From: Candidatus Woesearchaeota archaeon
Lineage (GTDB): Archaea > Nanobdellota > Nanobdellia > Woesearchaeales > WJIZ01
DNA length: 42,420 bases
Direction of reading: 5' to 3'
Assembly (NCBI GenBank): GCA_018303125.1
Contig: JAGVYS010000007.1
Location: 1-42,420 of the forward strand
Shown: positions 7,922 through 21,729 of the stretch, piece by piece
Layout of the letters: each line of letters opens with the position of its first letter
How positions within the stretch are numbered: the stretch's first letter is position 1
Translations under genes and position numbers: made by a program
Notes under the pieces: generated by a model
The model's database searches: none
What the model was told of the DNA's origin: nothing
What the model saw: only the letters and a program-made list of their open reading frames with translations

Positions 7922-8725
7922 TCAGGATGCCATTGCCCTTGCAGGGCCTGCGATTTCTACTGACCTTGCGCCCTTCTCGTCATTAATCACTGACTTCACG
8001 AGCTTCATGTAATCCTTTGCGCCCCTTGAGCTGTTGTCATAGGAGAAGATTGACTTGCCGTATTTCGGCGCCTCCTTCAGCTTTGAGTTTACCCTTATCG
8101 GCTCAGAGAGCATGTCATAGAACTCGTTCCTCATCTTGTCAAGGCTCTCCCTGCAAATCTTATTGCGCTTGTCATGCAAAGTCGGAATTATCTTCGTTAT
8201 CTTTGTGGATGTGCCGAATGTATGGTTTATAGTGACTATTGCCTCCATTATTTTCTTCAGGGCATGATAGCCTAAGTAATCGGTCGGCACAGGGATGAAT
8301 GCTTCATCACAATAAATAAGCGCGTTCTGGTTGAGTATGCTTAAAGAAGGGGATGCATCAATTATAATATAGTCATATCCCTTTACTTTTTTCATCTTTT
8401 CAGAGAGAGTGAATTGCGCATTGCCCTTCTTTGACAGCAGTGCATCTGCTTTTGTGAGAGTTTCCTTGCTTGGTATTATGTCGAAATTCTTCGCGAGGTT
8501 CCTTATGCATTCTCCCGGGTCTGCATTGTCTATAAGCATGTCATAGATATCCTTCTCTACCTCATGATGCAGCGAAACCGCGACATTGCCCTGCGCGTCC
8601 ATGTCAATAAGGAGAACTCTTCTGTCATTCCTTGAAAGCCCTGCAGCAAGATTCACTGCAGTTGTTGTCTTGCCAACACCGCCCTTTTGGTTTATCACGC
8701 AGATTTTTCTCATTTTATCCCTCAT
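7922..8725 (-). CDS. ParA/Soj-type partition ATPase
   Basis: Deviant Walker A motif near the N-terminus (QKGGVGKTTTAVNLAAGL), switch region VLLIDMDAQGNVAVS and Walker B-like YDYIIIDASPSLSILNQNA mark the ParA/MinD superfamily, ParA branch, at the usual length (267 aa). These ATPases segregate DNA or position other cargo. No parB-like gene is adjacent: upstream is the large lipoprotein gene on the other strand. Two starts are possible, ATG 8725 (GAGG just upstream) or ATG 8713; the second gives the classic short lead before the Walker motif. A TATA element (TATATATTAGTATA) lies 30-40 bp upstream. Confidence 0.88.
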   Translation of the reverse strand: MRDKMRKICVINQKGGVGKTTTAVNLAAGLSRNDRRVLLIDMDAQGNVAVSLHHEVEKDIYDMLIDNADPGECIRNLAKNFDIIPSKETLTKADALLSKKGNAQFTLSEKMKKVKGYDYIIIDASPSLSILNQNALIYCDEAFIPVPTDYLGYHALKKIMEAIVTINHTFGTSTKITKIIPTLHDKRNKICRESLDKMRNEFYDMLSEPIRVNSKLKEAPKYGKSIFSYDNSSRGAKDYMKLVKSVINDEKGARSVEIAGPARAMAS

Positions 8726-8910
8726 CCTCGCTGTTTAGTGGGTAGCTGAAAGTGTATACTAATATATAAAACTTACTGAATTGCACCTTAAGTCTGTTTA
8801 ACTTCGTGCCGAGAATGCAATTATCCTATTTTAGATACTAGTATAGTAAAATGATAAAATTTATATACCGGCTTATTTCTAAGGCTATAAACCAAATTGG
8901 AGGATTTAAA

Positions 8911-11900
8911 ATGAAAAAAATGTTCGTTATATTGCTAGTCTTGTCGATAATGCTTTATGCCTGCGGGGAAAAGGATGCCGCAGAGGCCGATGATGGCCTT
9001 GGTGTGAAAACAGGAGCTGCTATGTTCGCACCTAAGGCAGCTGATAGCCAAATCAGCGGATTCCTGATAGAGAGCGGCAATAACAAGGTGAATTTGTATG
9101 AAGAGCTTAATAGCGTAGTCAACAGTGTCGGAGGAAAAGAGTTTGCTGCGCTGAAGGATGGCAAATTTATGGGGATATCTTCATCTGCAAGCTATAAGCA
9201 GAGCCTGTCTTTGCCATCTGCCTATGTTGCATGGGATGTTGACCCGGACTCATCGCCTGAGGACCCTGCCTATTACCTCGGATTCAACAATGGAGAGCAA
9301 GGATTGTACTACAAGCTTACATTTGGCGATAAATTTCCTTCATCTTCCTTGTCTGATGGCAGCACTCTTCATGATTTTATTAGTTTTGTTGACCAAGACA
9401 GCGATTTTGGAATCACTCTCTTAGGCAAGAAATATTACGTGACCTCGGCAAAAAAGAACAAGGATAACAGCATTTACATGAGGCTTGTGGAGAATAAGGC
9501 AAGCGATACACTCGAGGAATATGGTTTAGGGAGATACTTTGTGAATGGGAATGCTTATACTGTCCAGATTAACGCGATTGATGCAGAAGCAAAAAAGGCA
9601 GAAATATTTGATGGAGAAAGTGGGAAATTTATTACCCTAATGTCTGAAGGCGAGTCATATCCCCTTGAGAATGGAGTTTATATTGAAATAATTTCCATAA
9701 GTGAGTCCGAGGTGCCGGGAGTCGCTAAGACAGATAAGAAAGTAACATTTGTTTTAAGTGATAATATTGTAGAGTTGGACGGCTTTAACAAGCGCCTGAT
9801 AATAAATGACGAAACAATAGATGATGTATGGGTTAATATGCCTGCGACAACGGATGGTATAGGGAATGTGGCCTGGAATGGCCTGACAATCAACTGGGTT
9901 CCGACTGATGACTATTATATACCTGAAGACGGAAGGCTTTCAGAGCAGGTAAAGGACCATAATGATTATTCCCGTTTCCTCAAGTCACTTGGAGTAGATT
10001 ATTATTTTCAGGGATTGACTAACGAAGGAGATGATGTGATTAATATATTGTCTTCCGGCTCAAGCGGGTATGGTGACCCATATAGAATTAGTTTCACTAA
10101 CAAGAGAGGAACACTCTATGATTTTACGCTTGGCTATTATGATAGCTCAAGCCCCCTAAAAATCAGCTGGGGAGAGAGCAGGGAAGACCCATTAAAGTTC
10201 AGGGCAGGAGACAGGGTATGCGAGAATGACCTTTTTATAGTTGAATCACGGAGCAGCATTTCAAGGGTGCTAAGGCTTCTTGATGTTAATACTGATGCGA
10301 GGCTTGTCACAATCGGGGACATTGGGACAATGGAAAAATATGATTACAGCTACAGGAAATCTGGGAAGTACCAGATAGCAAAGGTAGCGATGGATGGCGA
10401 GAATTATGAGCTTGCTATAGATGAGGATGAGGAAAATTGCGTGCTATTGAGGAAGATTTCGCCGTATGCAAACAGTGCAAACCTCTGGACAAAGTATGGC
10501 GTTATATCCCTTACCGAACCTTCACTGGGTGGCAAATACGCTATAACCATAAACGAAACCAACATCAATTTATTTGCAACTGGCCAATACTCCTTTAGAT
10601 TTGAGCTTGACAGCGATGAAAGGTTCAAGCTTTTGCGATATAATCTATGGGATTATGGTTTGGAAACCAATGTAGGAATGGCAACTCTTGACAGTGATGA
10701 TAACGCTGAGGAAGGAGTCTCAAGCAAAGGCACCCATATAAAGCATTACAATATGGACAAGCAGGATGCATGGAAGATAAAGATGCCAAAGTATGATGTT
10801 GAGGCTAAAGTTTATTTGACACCATATCCGTCAAGCACAAAGGCAATTAACAAAGTGCCGTTAGGAATTAAAGATTTATCGGAATATCCTAGAGGGCTTG
10901 TATCTAGTGGCAGATTCAGAGGTTTATTTGTTGTTGGTGATAATGCGCCGGCAGATGATGTCATTTCTCTATCAGATGTAATTTTGGCTGTACAGTATAC
11001 GGGTGGCACAGAAGATACTTTAACAAAAATCAAAACTGAGTCTGTTCTGGCTTCTGGCATAAAGGATGTGTATATGTGGCAGAATTTGGTATTAATAGGC
11101 ACTCTTGATTCAAATCCCTTAATAAAGAAATTTATCTCAAGCGTCAGCAACTATGGGGAGATTCACCTGCTTGAAAATAGCCTCTATTCCGCTATTATCG
11201 TTACAGGAAAAACAAAGGAAGGAGTGAATAAGGCAGCAAGTGTGGTTGCCAATGCAAAGGAGCTGAGGGGCACATTCATGGCAATTGATGAGGGCGGAAG
11301 GATTAGCTATGGTTCAAGATCTTCTTTATCCGGTAGCGGGTCTTTGTCATGCACAGTTATTTCGGAGCTTTCTTCAACAGTAGCAAATTTACGCAATACT
11401 AATGAGGTCAAATCCGGCAACAGCAAGATTATCCTAAAAGAAGGCGTAAAGGCAATAACTGGTGACTATATTGTCGCGCCTAGTGCCAGAGGCGGATTTG
11501 TTTTACAAGTTGTAAGCATTGAAAACTACAACAATGAAAGAAAAGATTTCGTTGGTGACTTTGCAATATTTAAGGATGTTGCAACAGGGGAGGAATTGAT
11601 TTTATACCCAAATGAGGAACGCAAAGCTACATTATATCTTCACGGTGAGTGGTACTTTATTGAATATGGGACAGAATACACAGCGAAGCAAACAAATTAT
11701 GTAATTTTGAACGCCGCTCTAGAAAATTACAAAGGATATAATTTCGAGGGATGTGGCTTTGGCGAGGGTTCATCCGCTACTGCTTTGGATTGTAGCCTGA
11801 TAGCCGCGGATGTTGTATCGGATATAGCAGATGCCAAAATTCGACACTCGAAAAATAATGTAAGACTAAAAGAAGGTGATGAGGTAAACATATATGATAG

Positions 11901-12831
11901 TGTACTGTTGCCTACACCGAAAGGAGGCAAACTTCTTAATGTCTTGTTAATAGATTTCTTAGATGATGAAAATAGCATCTATGTAAAAGACGGCAATGGG
12001 GAAGAATATACTTTTCGGGTAGACAATGAAAATGAAGCATCAATTGGAGGCAAGAAGGGAGTTATTGGAAAAGGGACAGCCATATTTAATGGGATACAGT
12101 ATCAGTTCTCCTATTTTCATGACTTAGTTAATATAAAAAGATATGTGACCTTCACACCCTTGGCTGAAGAGTACAAAGGATACAACTTCGAGAGTTGCGG
12201 ATTTGATAAACTAGGCTATTGCGATTTGATATCCTATGAGATTAAGTCCCTAGTAAAGAAAGAAATGAAGGCAGGCAGAAACGTCATATTGAAATCGCTT
12301 GTTAGAGCAACTAAAAATGACTTGATACTATTGCCTACACCTAAAGGCGGTGCTATTCTGGATGTTGACTATTCTGGAAATAAATTGGTTATAGGGTTGA
12401 CTGATTACGAAGGTCGAAAGGTGTACGATATGACAGAGAAGTTAGTTAGACCATGGTTTTTTGATATGATTATTCATGGAGCTAGGTTTGCGTTTTCAAT
12501 TGCGGATGGAAGCTTTATAACAGTTATGTCTGGAGATTACCCGAACTATAGCTTTGAGGGATGCGAGTTCAAGACTGCGCCGACATCTACATCATTAGCA
12601 GCCGGTACTTTCACCCACTGCGACATTGGAGGACGATGGGGCTGGAGGGAAGGCACATCTTCCTGCCCTGTCGGGACAAATCGCGTTGTCGATTCGTGTC
12701 CTGCAGAATCAAGCCAGTATGGTACACAAGGCTGCTATTATACAGGAAGCAACCAGGGCGGAGCGAAAAACCCATGCTGGGACTTTGAGCATGACCAGAG
12801 TGATGAATGCTGCTTTTACATGTGCAGCTAA
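8911..12831 (+). CDS. Giant surface lipoprotein with S-layer-like module and repeated C-terminal domains
   Basis: The start was moved from the ORF-track 8851 to ATG 8911: a TATA box (TTTATATACC, ~8860) lies between the two, and GGAGG is placed 8 bp before 8911. The 1306-residue protein begins with a signal peptide and lipobox (SIMLYAC), so it should be lipid-anchored at the surface. Residues near 670-800 resemble archaeal S-layer proteins (GLFVVGDNAPADDVISLSDV, MWQNLVLIGTLDSN). Downstream, related units recur: GYNFEGCGF, GYNFESCGF, NYSFEGCEF, and three copies of a LPTPKGG-type segment (LLPTPKGG twice, VAPSARGG once). The last ~80 residues are Cys-rich and could be disulfide-bonded, perhaps via the VKOR protein. 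No enzymatic motif seen. Confidence 0.8.
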   Translation: MKKMFVILLVLSIMLYACGEKDAAEADDGLGVKTGAAMFAPKAADSQISGFLIESGNNKVNLYEELNSVVNSVGGKEFAALKDGKFMGISSSASYKQSLSLPSAYVAWDVDPDSSPEDPAYYLGFNNGEQGLYYKLTFGDKFPSSSLSDGSTLHDFISFVDQDSDFGITLLGKKYYVTSAKKNKDNSIYMRLVENKASDTLEEYGLGRYFVNGNAYTVQINAIDAEAKKAEIFDGESGKFITLMSEGESYPLENGVYIEIISISESEVPGVAKTDKKVTFVLSDNIVELDGFNKRLIINDETIDDVWVNMPATTDGIGNVAWNGLTINWVPTDDYYIPEDGRLSEQVKDHNDYSRFLKSLGVDYYFQGLTNEGDDVINILSSGSSGYGDPYRISFTNKRGTLYDFTLGYYDSSSPLKISWGESREDPLKFRAGDRVCENDLFIVESRSSISRVLRLLDVNTDARLVTIGDIGTMEKYDYSYRKSGKYQIAKVAMDGENYELAIDEDEENCVLLRKISPYANSANLWTKYGVISLTEPSLGGKYAITINETNINLFATGQYSFRFELDSDERFKLLRYNLWDYGLETNVGMATLDSDDNAEEGVSSKGTHIKHYNMDKQDAWKIKMPKYDVEAKVYLTPYPSSTKAINKVPLGIKDLSEYPRGLVSSGRFRGLFVVGDNAPADDVISLSDVILAVQYTGGTEDTLTKIKTESVLASGIKDVYMWQNLVLIGTLDSNPLIKKFISSVSNYGEIHLLENSLYSAIIVTGKTKEGVNKAASVVANAKELRGTFMAIDEGGRISYGSRSSLSGSGSLSCTVISELSSTVANLRNTNEVKSGNSKIILKEGVKAITGDYIVAPSARGGFVLQVVSIENYNNERKDFVGDFAIFKDVATGEELILYPNEERKATLYLHGEWYFIEYGTEYTAKQTNYVILNAALENYKGYNFEGCGFGEGSSATALDCSLIAADVVSDIADAKIRHSKNNVRLKEGDEVNIYDSVLLPTPKGGKLLNVLLIDFLDDENSIYVKDGNGEEYTFRVDNENEASIGGKKGVIGKGTAIFNGIQYQFSYFHDLVNIKRYVTFTPLAEEYKGYNFESCGFDKLGYCDLISYEIKSLVKKEMKAGRNVILKSLVRATKNDLILLPTPKGGAILDVDYSGNKLVIGLTDYEGRKVYDMTEKLVRPWFFDMIIHGARFAFSIADGSFITVMSGDYPNYSFEGCEFKTAPTSTSLAAGTFTHCDIGGRWGWREGTSSCPVGTNRVVDSCPAESSQYGTQGCYYTGSNQGGAKNPCWDFEHDQSDECCFYMCS

Positions 12832-13001
12832 TCCGGAAAAGAAGCATTTATGGATGGGGATTTGTCTGCTGGATATGAATAATCTAGCGGACTACTATTT
12901 TTTCTGGTGATGTTTTATATGTAAAAATCTAGAGTTACTTATATTCTCTCAGAAGAAAGCAACAACAACTTATGGATAGGAGACTTTTTTATTGTGATTT
13001 G

Positions 13002-13733
13002 TTAATTTTCATCTTCAAACTCTCGTAATTTAGCAGTCAATGCATATTGTACAATACTTTGTCTTGCCGGGTCCAAAAGTACATGCTGTGCTATAACATA
13101 AAGCAAATCTGAACGGTAAATTATTTTTTCTATGGCTTTTTTCAATAATTTGGAATGTTTAATTTTTTGCTGGCTATATGCAATCAATGCATATAAGTCA
13201 CAAGCATCTTTATTTTCTTTATCTGATTTATCACGTGAGAAAAGTGCGATGCATTTTAAAGCAATTAAAGTATCAATATTTGCTAAACTAAATCCATTCA
13301 TATTAAAATAGGTTATATGCTTTAACGGTTCAAGGTGCCAACTCTTTAGTGCATTTGTTTGCCTATCACAAAATAAATCTAAAAAGATATGAATTAGATT
13401 GAAAATTTCTTCTTTCTCCGCATCCTTCTGTGAAATATACTTTTTAGATTCCCTATTGTAAATTCTTTCCCACCGAAAGTACATGCCATTAGGAGTAAAA
13501 CCTAAATCTTTTATTAGTTTGTGAAATTCATCTTCTTTAGAATGGTCAAAGCTAATGTCTATATCACGAGAACCCATATAATTTTTACCAAACGCTTTGG
13601 AGTAGGTATTATCAACATAAAAAAAAGTTGCCCAACCGCCAATTATAGCAATACGGATATTTTTTTTATCACATTCCCTAGACATTTCTTTTAGCAAGTT
13701 TAAAGATAACTCGGTTTCGGTAGGGTCATACAT
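13002..13733 (-). CDS. AbiEii-like nucleotidyltransferase, putative toxin
   Basis: A 243-residue protein with the nucleotidyltransferase signature: IAIIGGWATFF, then MGSRDIDISF (G-S-x-x-D-x-D), giving the two metal-binding aspartates. A helical C-terminal region follows, with ANIDTLIALKCIALFSRDKSDKENKDACDLYAL, here quoted only in outline, as in AbiEii/MNT-type proteins. It is the second gene of a two-gene operon, overlapping the upstream antitoxin-like gene by 8 bp. Gene order (regulator first, NTase second) is that of type IV AbiE systems, where the NTase blocks growth, probably by nucleotide addition to RNA. The region is visibly AT-richer than its surroundings, a sign of transfer. Confidence 0.72.
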   Translation of the reverse strand: MYDPTETELSLNLLKEMSRECDKKNIRIAIIGGWATFFYVDNTYSKAFGKNYMGSRDIDISFDHSKEDEFHKLIKDLGFTPNGMYFRWERIYNRESKKYISQKDAEKEEIFNLIHIFLDLFCDRQTNALKSWHLEPLKHITYFNMNGFSLANIDTLIALKCIALFSRDKSDKENKDACDLYALIAYSQQKIKHSKLLKKAIEKIIYRSDLLYVIAQHVLLDPARQSIVQYALTAKLREFEDEN

Positions 13734-14379
13734 ATTTATGATACTTCCTCATTATAACGTTTAACAATTCTTTTGATGCTTCTACCCCTCTTCCTCCATA
13801 GGAAAATAAATCTGCGTATAGCTGCGGTAATGAAACTAAATTTACATCCCTTACATTCATGATTCCTTCAAAATATTCTTCATCTATCAAAAGACAGATA
13901 ATACTCCCATTTTTTCCTATAGGGAGCATATTTTCATCTCTGAAAAAAGTTTCCCATCTCTTTAAATCCTTCTTAAGTATATAGAGATGAGTATCCGAAG
14001 GTGCAACATAAGGACTAACATGCTCAGTAGCTGAAAATAAAGTAAATGCGTATTTCAATTTTAATTGTCGTGCTTCGTTTGCTATTTTGAGCATAATATA
14101 TTGTGGTCTTTCGGCAGCTACAAATTCTTGACGCTCAAGCTCCCTAATGGAATATGTGTATCCCCAAGCAGTCATTAACTTTATTGGGTCAATAACTTTG
14201 ACTCCTTTGCTTATTGTAACGTATTCGCTTCGCTCTAAACGTAAAACTAACCTTTTTGCCATAGCTGGAGTAACTCCAGCTTTTTTCGCTAAAGTGCTCA
14301 ATTGAAGGCTTGAACCATCTTCTAGAGCATTGACTAGAAGAATCCTTATCAATGCATTAAGTTTTTCAGGTATTAACAT
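13726..14379 (-). CDS. AbiEi-like winged-helix antitoxin/autorepressor
   Basis: 217 aa. The N-terminal ~75 residues form a winged helix (LSTLAKKAGVTPAMAKRLVL), followed by an AbiEi-type central/C-terminal domain (e.g. VAPSDTHLYILKKDL) of the family annotated as type IV antitoxins. The known role of AbiEi proteins is to neutralise the NTase toxin and repress their own promoter through the winged helix. Here the promoter region just upstream carries four ACTATACT repeats, the first overlapping the likely TATA element about 25 bp before ATG 14379. The gene overlaps the toxin-like gene by 8 bp. The pair is confidently an operon; membership of AbiE is inferred from order and domain type. Confidence 0.7.
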   Translation of the reverse strand: MLIPEKLNALIRILLVNALEDGSSLQLSTLAKKAGVTPAMAKRLVLRLERSEYVTISKGVKVIDPIKLMTAWGYTYSIRELERQEFVAAERPQYIMLKIANEARQLKLKYAFTLFSATEHVSPYVAPSDTHLYILKKDLKRWETFFRDENMLPIGKNGSIICLLIDEEYFEGIMNVRDVNLVSLPQLYADLFSYGGRGVEASKELLNVIMRKYHKYV

Positions 14380-14397
14380 ATTAAATCACTTTACTAA

Positions 14398-14470
14398 ACT
14401 ATACTTTATTAGCTACTCTTATACTATACTAAGTATGGTTATACTATACTTTAAATAGATGTACTATACT
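14398..14470. promoter_or_regulatory. Four spaced ACTATACT repeats, putative AbiEi operator
   Basis: Exact ACTATACT occurs at 14398, 14423, 14443 and 14463, at steps of 25, 20 and 20 bp, close to two DNA turns. The second copy also forms a small palindrome (ATACTAAGTAT). The array lies directly upstream of the AbiEi-like gene and its first unit overlaps the expected TATA position. Such spacing on one face of the helix suits cooperative binding by the winged-helix antitoxin. Confidence 0.65.
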
Positions 14471-14578
14471 ACTATTAAAATATTACTATAAAAAAGGTAG
14501 TAAAGGGTATACCAATCTACATAATGAAAAGTATATGTCTAGCATGTTTACGAATAATGTGGATAATTCGCAGGACTG

Positions 14579-14644
14579 CTAAGGTCTCAGGTATGGCACA
14601 ATCTTTGGTATAGCCCAAAAGAGGAAAAATAGCAAGAATGCCAT
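14579..14644 (-). CDS. Possible 21-residue hydrophobic peptide, leaderless
   Basis: Too short for the ORF track. ATG 14644 opens a 21-codon frame that is almost entirely one membrane helix (MAFLLFFLFWAIPKIVPYLR). A strong TATA box (TTATATATAT, 14671-14680) lies about 30 bp upstream on the minus strand, the spacing used by leaderless genes elsewhere in this window. An overlapping 54-codon frame from ATG 14683 looks less protein-like. No known family. It lies in a 630-bp region without other genes between the AbiE-like operon and TFB. Coding is plausible but unproven. Confidence 0.35.
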   Translation of the reverse strand: MAFLLFFLFWAIPKIVPYLRP

Positions 14645-14684
14645 AGTAGCTGTTCCTGTGATGAACCGCTTTATATATATCCAT

Positions 14685-15008
14685 TATTATCATCTCCGGG
14701 CTTAACGATAAACGTCTTCATATTTAAAGGCTGATAAAATTATAAGCTTTCATTTAACCTGCCAGTAGTAGCTGTTATGGTTTAAATGCCAATTTTGGAG
14801 CTTTTTATCTACCCTTATAAATTGACCTTCTAATTCTTCAAAATTTTGCACTTATAGGAGTTTATGTCCGATGTGGGAGTTTATAGCCAAAGCCGAATTA
14901 TAGAAAGCTTTATATACACTCTTTGATTTCTCTTTATAAATTTTTATATAATGAAATGGATATAATCAAGAAAAATAAGGGGGGTTCTTGATTCGCAAGG
15001 TGGTATGA
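14685..15008 (+). promoter_or_regulatory. Upstream region and promoter of the TFB gene
   Basis: No gene seen. TTTTTATATAAT at 14941-14952 is a good TATA box. Transcription from about 14970 would give a ~35-nt leader carrying AAGGTGG before ATG 15009. A second TATA-like element (TTTATATAC) is at 14911. Two short direct repeats are present: GGAGTTTAT twice (around 14858-14882), and AGTAGCTGTT here and in the small gene to the left. Their role is unknown. Confidence 0.5.
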
Positions 15009-15929
15009 ATGGCTGATATGGTCAAAAAATGCCCTGAATGCGGCGGTATAAACCTTTTCTGGAATCGCGAAAAAGGCGAGATTATCTGCAGAGACTGCGG
15101 GCTTGTCATTGAGGACAAGATGGTAGACTTCACGCAGGAATGGCGTGAGTTTGATTCTAATGAGTCTGAGAGCAGGAGAAGGACAGGAGCACCTATGACC
15201 TTTACCCAGTATGACCAGGGATTGGGCACAGAGGTAGGCCAGAAATCGGATTTATTCAAGCTTGACAGCGGTGACAGGAACAAGTTCTTCAGGCTCAGGA
15301 AATGGCAGTATAGAATATCAACTGCAATAGAAAGAAACCTAAAGCTGGCATTGGCTGAGCTGAAAAGAGTTTCTTCATTCCTTAAATTGCCTAAATCTGT
15401 TGAGGAAGAGGCAGCAAGAATCTATACGCTTGCTGTGCAGAGGGGGCTTGTAAGGGGAAGGAGCATGGAAAGCGTTGTTGCGGGCGCGTTATATGCTGCA
15501 TGCAGGCGCCATGAAGTGCCAAGGACGCTTGATGAGCTTAGCGAGGCTTCCGGGATAGAAAAGAAGGAAATAGGAAGGACTTACAGGTTTGTAACGAGAG
15601 AATTGGGCCTGACAATATTGCCTTCAAATCCTGCCGATTACATTGCAAGGTTTGCATCTGCCCTGAAATTGTCGGCAGAGACGCAGTCAAATGCAATAGA
15701 GATACTTGAAAAGGCGCAGAAGATTGAGCTTACATCCGGAAGAGGACCGACTGGGATAGCATCTGCTGCTTTATACGTTTCAGCCCTTCTCCATGGGGAG
15801 AAGAGGACGCAGAGAGAAGTTGCGGATGTGGCTGGTGTAACTGAGGTGACGATAAGGAACAGGTACAAGGAGCTTCTTGAAGAACTTAAGCTTGAGAAGG
15901 AAATCAAGAAGACCAAGAAGAGGAAATAA
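15009..15929 (+). CDS. tfb: Transcription initiation factor B (TFIIB homologue)
   Basis: Archaeal general transcription factor that bridges TATA-bound TBP and RNA polymerase. The N-terminal zinc ribbon is clear (CPECGG...ICRDCGLV). The B-reader/linker region includes SRRRTGAPMTFTQYDQGLGT, and two cyclin-like repeats follow: first (about 115-200, with VVAGALYAACRRHEVPRTLDEL), second (about 210-300, ending GVTEVTIRNRYKELLEEL). The 306-aa length is normal. ATG 15009 is preceded by a ribosome-binding site, which is unusual here because many neighbours look leaderless. The next gene starts 15 bp downstream and is probably cotranscribed. Confidence 0.96.
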   Translation: MADMVKKCPECGGINLFWNREKGEIICRDCGLVIEDKMVDFTQEWREFDSNESESRRRTGAPMTFTQYDQGLGTEVGQKSDLFKLDSGDRNKFFRLRKWQYRISTAIERNLKLALAELKRVSSFLKLPKSVEEEAARIYTLAVQRGLVRGRSMESVVAGALYAACRRHEVPRTLDELSEASGIEKKEIGRTYRFVTRELGLTILPSNPADYIARFASALKLSAETQSNAIEILEKAQKIELTSGRGPTGIASAALYVSALLHGEKRTQREVADVAGVTEVTIRNRYKELLEELKLEKEIKKTKKRK

Positions 15930-20860: not shown

Positions 20861-21729
20861 TTACAAACGTTTTTCGTATGCTTCATTAGGAGTCATGTAA
20901 TCTAGTGCCTCACTCGGTCTCTCATTATTATAGTATTCAAAAAATTCATCCAATGTATTAAATCGGTCATCAAATTCTGTATCCAGAATGTGAAAGAACT
21001 TCTCACATTTTCCATTGGTCTGTGGATGTCTCACTTTTGAAGGAACAAGTATTATGCCCAACTCCTTTAAAACTTCTTGAAATTCATGATCAGCCTCTCC
21101 ATCCTTATCTGTTTTTACTGATACATACTGTGTTCCATGATCAGTATTCAGAATAAAGGGAGTTACTAAATTGTCACCTACAGACTTGTAAAGGCCCAAT
21201 AGTGCATTTCTAGTAGTCTGCTCGCCGAGACAATGACCCATCACTTTTCTTGTGCAATCATCAATATAAATCTGGATCGTTTGGCCATTTAATTTCGAAG
21301 CCTTAATGACATGGCCATTGGTATGCCGCATATAGTTAGGTAGTGGCCATTCGTAGCGTTTGTATTTTCTTGGCTTTCTTTTCTTAAGATTGGGTTTTTG
21401 AAAGCCTTCTTTTATGAGAACCTGACTCACTTTCCTAAGAGAAACGCCAAATCCTTTTTTTGTTAGAATATTATGAAGATTTCTCCCTCCACATCTATAT
21501 TTTCTGTAAGTCTGTACTACAAGATCATAGAATTTGGGATTTAATGGCTCAAAGAGTCTGCCAGAGATATGATCTTTAAGACCTTCTTTGCCTTCGTTTT
21601 CATATTTTTTCCGTATTTCCCAAACAGTTTTTCGGGTTACTTTCTGAGCCAATGCAATGCTCTTTATTTGAGCTCCCTTCTTTATCTGTTTAACAATCCA
21701 CTCACGTTTTTTTTATTAAGTTTATACAT
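20861..21729 (-). pseudogene. IS481-family transposase (DDE integrase fold), frameshifted in an A-run
   Basis: The ORF track begins at TTG 21652, but the helix-turn-helix start lies upstream. ATG 21729 gives MYKLNKK, then an 8-A run, after which the next frame continues REWIVKQIKKGAQIKSIAL into the annotated ORF. Nine As would make one reading frame of about 290 aa. The rve catalytic domain follows, with the aspartates in QIYIDDCTRKVMG and LNTDHGTQYV, and the Glu in NGKCEKFFHILDTEF. The C-terminus YYNNERPSEALDYMTPNEAY is typical. It may be a disabled copy, an assembly error, or slippage on the A-run. Confidence 0.8.

Follow-up and report, generated by a model that had tools for sequence, protein, structure and literature searches.

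The operon considered here raises the question of what reads a series of short repeats in its promoter, and whether these repeats form an operator unlike those described for AbiE toxin-antitoxin systems. The window (the whole 42,420-nucleotide stretch of DNA analysed) is contig G000:C54 of a 1.35-Mb Woesearchaeota-type genome. On its minus strand lie two genes, 13726-14379 followed by 13002-13733, preceded by four identical 8-bp sequences. The favored answer, held at a probability of roughly three in four, is that the array provides docking sites through which the antitoxin would control its own operon, a pair of the COG4861/DUF1814 AbiE type.

An AbiE-Like Gene Pair

The first gene (13726-14379, minus strand) encodes a 217-amino acid regulator-antitoxin of the AbiEi_2/COG4861 type, with an N-terminal winged helix-turn-helix (HTH) and a degenerate nucleotidyltransferase-fold C-terminal domain (CTD), and the second (13002-13733, minus strand) a 243-amino acid DUF1814/AbiEii-like nucleotidyltransferase, the predicted toxin. 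The two overlap by 8 bp, and the same bicistronic order, regulator first and nucleotidyltransferase second, was found in the homologous loci checked. The overlapping AbiE-like order noted in an earlier, sequence-only reading of this DNA is thus borne out, and Pfam matches, motifs, and predicted fold agree with it. In Pfam, the first product matches PF09952 (AbiEi_2) at 25.2 bits, above the gathering threshold of 21, while the second falls just below threshold for PF08843 (AbiEii; 21.0 bits against 22.5) and has a further, weak match to NTP_transf_5. NCBIfam gave no usable match, and PADLOC only weak matches to AbiEii and CasR. PF09952 corresponds to COG4861 (PMC7251935), and by this match the predicted antitoxin is a member of the COG4861 branch, not of the studied COG5340 branch.

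In an alignment of 16 homologues of the predicted toxin, GGW, SRDID, D119, K160, R167, and KDxCD are invariant, and the catalytic motifs as recognized from sequence are intact throughout. The spacing of K160, R167, and D179 is identical to that of K173, R180, and D192 in motifs III and IV of the Streptococcus agalactiae AbiEii, each of which is required for toxicity (PMC3985639), whereas the GG-to-DID stretch of motifs I-II is longer (x23 versus x15). The AlphaFold model of the toxin (pLDDT 95.3) has 5uvd, LnuA, MenT1, ANT(2'')-Ia, and JHP933 as fold neighbors (best E-value 4e-6). That of the antitoxin (pLDDT 89.8) shows the winged HTH followed by the CTD; its PDB neighbors include ANT(2'')-Ia, the fungal nucleotidyltransferase-like 5uvd, and MenT1 over ~170 columns, and its HTH resembles MntR/IclR. 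These Foldseek matches have weak E-values (0.01-0.06) and probabilities of up to 1.00. For the solved S. agalactiae AbiEi, Beck et al. reported 5KQJ, 4FO1, and 5UVD as neighbors (PMC7319586), and two of the three (5kqj and 5uvd) recur among those of the CTD modeled here. A PDB sequence search returned just HTH proteins and one weak nucleotidyltransferase. Because Pfam matches, gene order, the spacing of AbiEii motifs III/IV, and fold neighbors common with true AbiEi all point the same way, the prediction that the operon encodes an AbiE-like toxin-antitoxin pair is supported.

Direct Repeats in the Operon Promoter

Upstream of the operon, ACTATACT occurs as an exact match at 14398, 14423, 14443, and 14463, with spacings of 25, 20, and 20 bp, confirming an earlier observation that the last three copies stand 20 bp apart. 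Read in the sense of the genes, the unit is AGTATAGT, and the four candidate operator units on the minus strand are unit 4 (14398-14405), closest to the start codon, unit 3 (14423-14430), unit 2 (14443-14450), and unit 1 (14463-14470). The 25-bp step counts against a strict 20-bp design. A degenerate extra unit, AGTAAAGT, lies at 14388-14395 on the same strand with one mismatch and resembles the TAAAGTG units of two homologous loci, L022 and L025; a second one-mismatch copy lies at 14393-14400, and a single inverted copy, also with one mismatch, at 14432-14439.

Over the whole window and both strands, ACTATACT is present in seven copies against 0.81 expected, a count reached by none of 100 shuffles. 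The promoter region has a GC content of 23%, which makes the local chance of repetition less extreme than it appears: when 14380-14520 was shuffled 5000 times with dinucleotides preserved, 11 of the shuffles held four copies of some 8-mer, so that the four-copy array, taken at this locus alone, is only moderately improbable. It is nevertheless specific. The lag-20 self-match of the operon promoter is 23, whereas 31 further promoters of the window score 3.5 on average and never above 6. A genome-wide search for two units spaced 20 bp apart, allowing up to two mismatches, matched nowhere outside this array.

A candidate TATA-like element, TAATAAAG (14405-14412, minus strand), stands ~28 nt upstream of the ATG. 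Confidence in it is low, and it was singled out because an analogous TATATAAAG stands at a similar distance in the homologous locus L018. With this element, a leaderless transcript is possible. An alternative candidate of equally low confidence is TATTTAAAG, near 14448-14456.

A 20-bp Period Conserved Among Homologous Promoters

Of 353 genomes in the order, 59 yielded AbiEi homologues, usually in one copy and in many cases as partial or weak matches; in the full-length loci examined, the partner toxin gene lies downstream of the antitoxin gene. Promoters were compared in three sets: set I (the window's own, L018, L020, L021, L022, and L025; relatives 58-68% identical to the own sequence), set II (L023, L024, L026, L027, and L028; 36-44%), and set III (L029-L047; ~30%). 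Sets I and III are well-supported clades, and set II does not resolve as a single clade.

A lag of 20 is the strongest self-match period in both set I (six loci, z = 12.3) and set II (five loci, z = 14.7), with a harmonic at 40 and a signal reached by none of 100 shuffle sets. Direct-repeat scores exceed those of shuffles (z = 7.6 and 10.0, respectively), while inverted repeats do not rise above them (z = 1.5 and 1.7), and a COG5340-type inverted-repeat operator was rejected for both sets on these grounds, despite the inverted unit at 14432-14439. The letters of the repeat are less constant than its period. Units of set I include AGTATAGT, TAATGTA, AAAGTA, and TAAAGTG, and the unit of set II is TGAACAT followed by a TATA-like stretch. 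Since the period recurs while the letters change, the array goes beyond chance, and an origin as chance repeats in AT-rich DNA, which the 11 local shuffles might have encouraged, was rejected by this comparison. The prediction that the array would be found upstream of homologous operons thus holds for sets I and II as a 20-bp direct-repeat design with drifting units; loss of the repeats where the operon is kept, which the sequence-only reading had named as refuting its view, is not what these promoters show. TGAACAT has a weak internal symmetry (TG-AA-CA), and one dimer on each such unit is conceivable.

Strong lag-20 tiles occur solely at the operon promoter in 9 of the 11 loci, and the tandem TGAACAT pattern is likewise confined to it in five genomes, each of a different family, that were searched throughout; the reversed TGAACAT control matched nowhere in them. 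These distributions bear on the idea that the units are duplicated BRE/TATA core-promoter elements serving several start sites, with the antitoxin uninvolved. In set II, TATTTAAA or TATATAAA follows TGAACAT in each 20-bp unit, and short AT-rich units in a region of 23% GC could partly reflect TATA-like sequence. The conserved part, however, is TGAACAT or AGTATAGT and not the TATA box, the lag-20 signal is absent from the 31 other window promoters, the arrays are unique to the operon promoter in whole genomes, and the letters of the sites shift with the recognition helix of the antitoxin (see below), which together leave this explanation unlikely.

Several deviations count against an autoregulatory array. 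The arrays of L022 and L025 are weak, with two units about 19-20 bp apart, the best array of L020 lies further upstream, and in a further close homologue, L078 (1400-1450), the array is an 18-bp, partly inverted version. Among other features of the homologous loci, ~280 bp separate the antitoxin and toxin genes of L027 (2121-2400), where most others overlap or nearly so. The AbiEi CTD also appears within open frames of ~400 amino acids at G268:C4:20552-21004, G198:C82:5809-6264, and L042, which suggests fused or extended antitoxins. No relative was found in the viral contigs scanned, and a viral origin was set aside on this result.

Covariation of Sites and Recognition Helix

In most of 18 set III loci, the palindrome CTTACATGTAAG, exact or nearly so, stands at -47 and a site resembling CTTACAT at -10, a palindrome-to-half-site distance of 37 bp with the TATA box between them. 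The phased direct-repeat design put forward from the window alone accordingly describes sets I and II but not this sister clade. The recognition-helix region also differs by set, reading PAMAKRLVLRL in set I, SLGITSKIVNQL in set II, and TRQWVILFLREL in set III. Within set III, L038 and L040 have the helix SFPWVHEFL, in which SFPWVHEF replaces TRQWVILF, and each of these loci departs from the rest in its palindrome and its distal half-site alike (CCGATATATAGG with CCTACAT or CCTATAT) while the 37 bp are kept. In L032, a perfect palindrome is retained through changes on both arms (CTTCCATGGAAG). Site and helix thus appear to covary, a correlation that is expected if the antitoxin reads the sites.

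This covariation is relevant to whether some other regulator, encoded by the host or by an element, reads the array while the antitoxin lacks autoregulation. Such an arrangement has a precedent in MenAT1, in which autoregulation is absent (PMC11375011), but MenA1, a small protein of two helices, lacks a winged HTH (PMC10435456). Given in addition that changes in the HTH go with changes in the site from clade to clade and that the array accompanies the operon into unrelated contexts, a separate regulator is quite unlikely.

Genomic Setting

The operon has a GC content of 32.7%, compared with 40.9% for the window. An earlier description of the locus as AT-rich therefore applies to the operon and does not extend to the giant neighboring gene, at 41.3%. 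The region is flanked by conserved genes for ParA (7922-8725) and TFB (15009-15929). In the four same-family relatives with both genes on one contig, the ParA-TFB gap is 243 bp (G004), 409 bp (G003), 1.1 kb (G002), or 1.6 kb (G005), whereas in the window it measures 6.3 kb (8725-15009) and holds the giant gene and the AbiE operon. By this comparison, 8725-15009 is a variable slot, and the operon is part of an insertion specific to the lineage; the operon copy of G003 is on a different contig from its ParA-TFB pair. The flanks of the ten homologous loci and the window (11 loci) are almost wholly non-homologous, from which it follows that operon and array persist together and that the site in the window is a variable slot. 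The suspicion of an accessory island is directly supported by these comparisons.

Iterons and partition sites typically show direct repeats of ~20 bp. The array might therefore be bound by a protein that replicates or partitions an integrated element, as an iteron or centromere-like series, with the operon a mere neighbor, and both the nearby ParA gene and the position of the operon inside an insertion favor such a view. ParA, however, is a conserved flank that sits beside TFB in relatives that lack the operon at this site, it is absent from the short contexts of the ten homologous loci, and the array always lies directly upstream of the antitoxin gene. On these observations, the link to an element's own Rep or ParAB that an iteron or centromere array would show is not seen. 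This origin is considered very unlikely.

Other features of the region were noted. The giant gene (8851-12831) encodes a 1326-amino acid lipoprotein-like surface protein with zero Pfam matches up to E = 1; incomplete relatives occur elsewhere in the family, the same genome has a shorter partial paralogue (G000:C22), and the protein may be S-layer related. In relatives (L101 and L102), a conserved GTATACGAAA(A/T)TGTATAC-like palindrome stands upstream of ParA, between ParA and TFB, and may serve as an operator for ParA or as a partition site. An rve integrase-core transposase gene at 20861-21652 may mark a mobile element close by.

Comparison with Characterized Operators

AbiEi of the studied type is a monomer that represses its own promoter and bends DNA, and relatives of the antitoxin described here are known to autorepress through repeats in their promoters (PMC3985639, PMC7319586). 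The operators of AbiEi and MenA4 are built from 23-bp inverted repeats, two or four in number (PMC7319586, PMC3985639), as the sequence-only reading had correctly stated for bacterial repressors; the operator descriptions found in the literature all concern the bacterial COG5340 branch. The S. agalactiae system (AbiEi COG5340/AbiEii COG2253; PMC3985639) has in common with the window a leading antitoxin built of a winged HTH and a CTD with nucleotidyltransferase-like fold, promoter repeats, and the toxin motif III/IV spacing given above. It differs in its COG5340 antitoxin, its shorter motif I-II stretch, and its operator of two 23-bp inverted repeats; the window has a COG4861/AbiEi_2 antitoxin, an archaeal promoter, and tandem direct repeats at 20 bp. 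Mycobacterium tuberculosis MenA4-MenT4 (Rv2827c-Rv2826c; PMC7319586) has four antitoxin sites, matching in number the four candidate units, but these form two 23-bp inverted-repeat pairs with gaps of 13 and 4 bp, in contrast to the single orientation and 20-bp period of the window.

Within the COG4861 branch, the COG4861-COG4849 gene pairing described in PMC3985639 is that of the window, and Rv0837c of MenAT2 is, like the window antitoxin, a COG4861 protein. PygAT of Pyrococcus yayanosii (PYCH_15320-15330; PMC5126054) is an AbiE-type pair from an archaeon, carried on a genomic island, of COG5340/COG2253 type as opposed to COG4861, and is presented there without a promoter description. Archaeal AbiE systems are reported to be enriched in DPANN (PMC12988326). 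Because such systems are already known, the new part is the operator layout and not the system. A title and abstract search of the literature found neither a COG4861 operator nor AbiEi direct repeats. The phased direct array is a predicted operator whose layout differs from those characterized for AbiEi and MenA4, and among the literature found this putative operator is the first layout for the COG4861 branch.

A Model for Autoregulation and Its Implications

In the proposed mechanism, the winged HTH of the 13726-14379 protein would bind each AGTATAGT unit. As the units are 20 bp apart, or about two helical turns, successive monomers would lie head to tail on one face of the DNA. Covered by this row of monomers, the archaeal TATA/BRE elements and the start region would be closed to TBP/TFB and to RNA polymerase, and the operon would be repressed. 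A fall in antitoxin would lift repression and leave the nucleotidyltransferase unneutralized, and the free toxin might then act on its target to arrest growth. By analogy with MenT, which targets tRNA ends (PMC10435456), this target could be tRNA acceptor ends. The role of the system would probably be antiviral defense or element stability.

A broader proposal is put forward tentatively, with doubt slightly outweighing confidence: the COG4861-type antitoxins of these archaea would bind as a head-to-tail row on one face of promoter DNA, one monomer per 20-bp unit, and those of the sister clade would use a palindrome with a half-site 37 bp away. If this is true, operator geometry has been remodeled in a single toxin-antitoxin family whose genes have remained unchanged. 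For the COG4861 branch, the proposal yields a concrete sequence-level prediction, namely phased direct repeats as the operator and recognition helices that match them. With two operator geometries in one family, the arrangement of AbiEi monomers on DNA would become testable with short probes.
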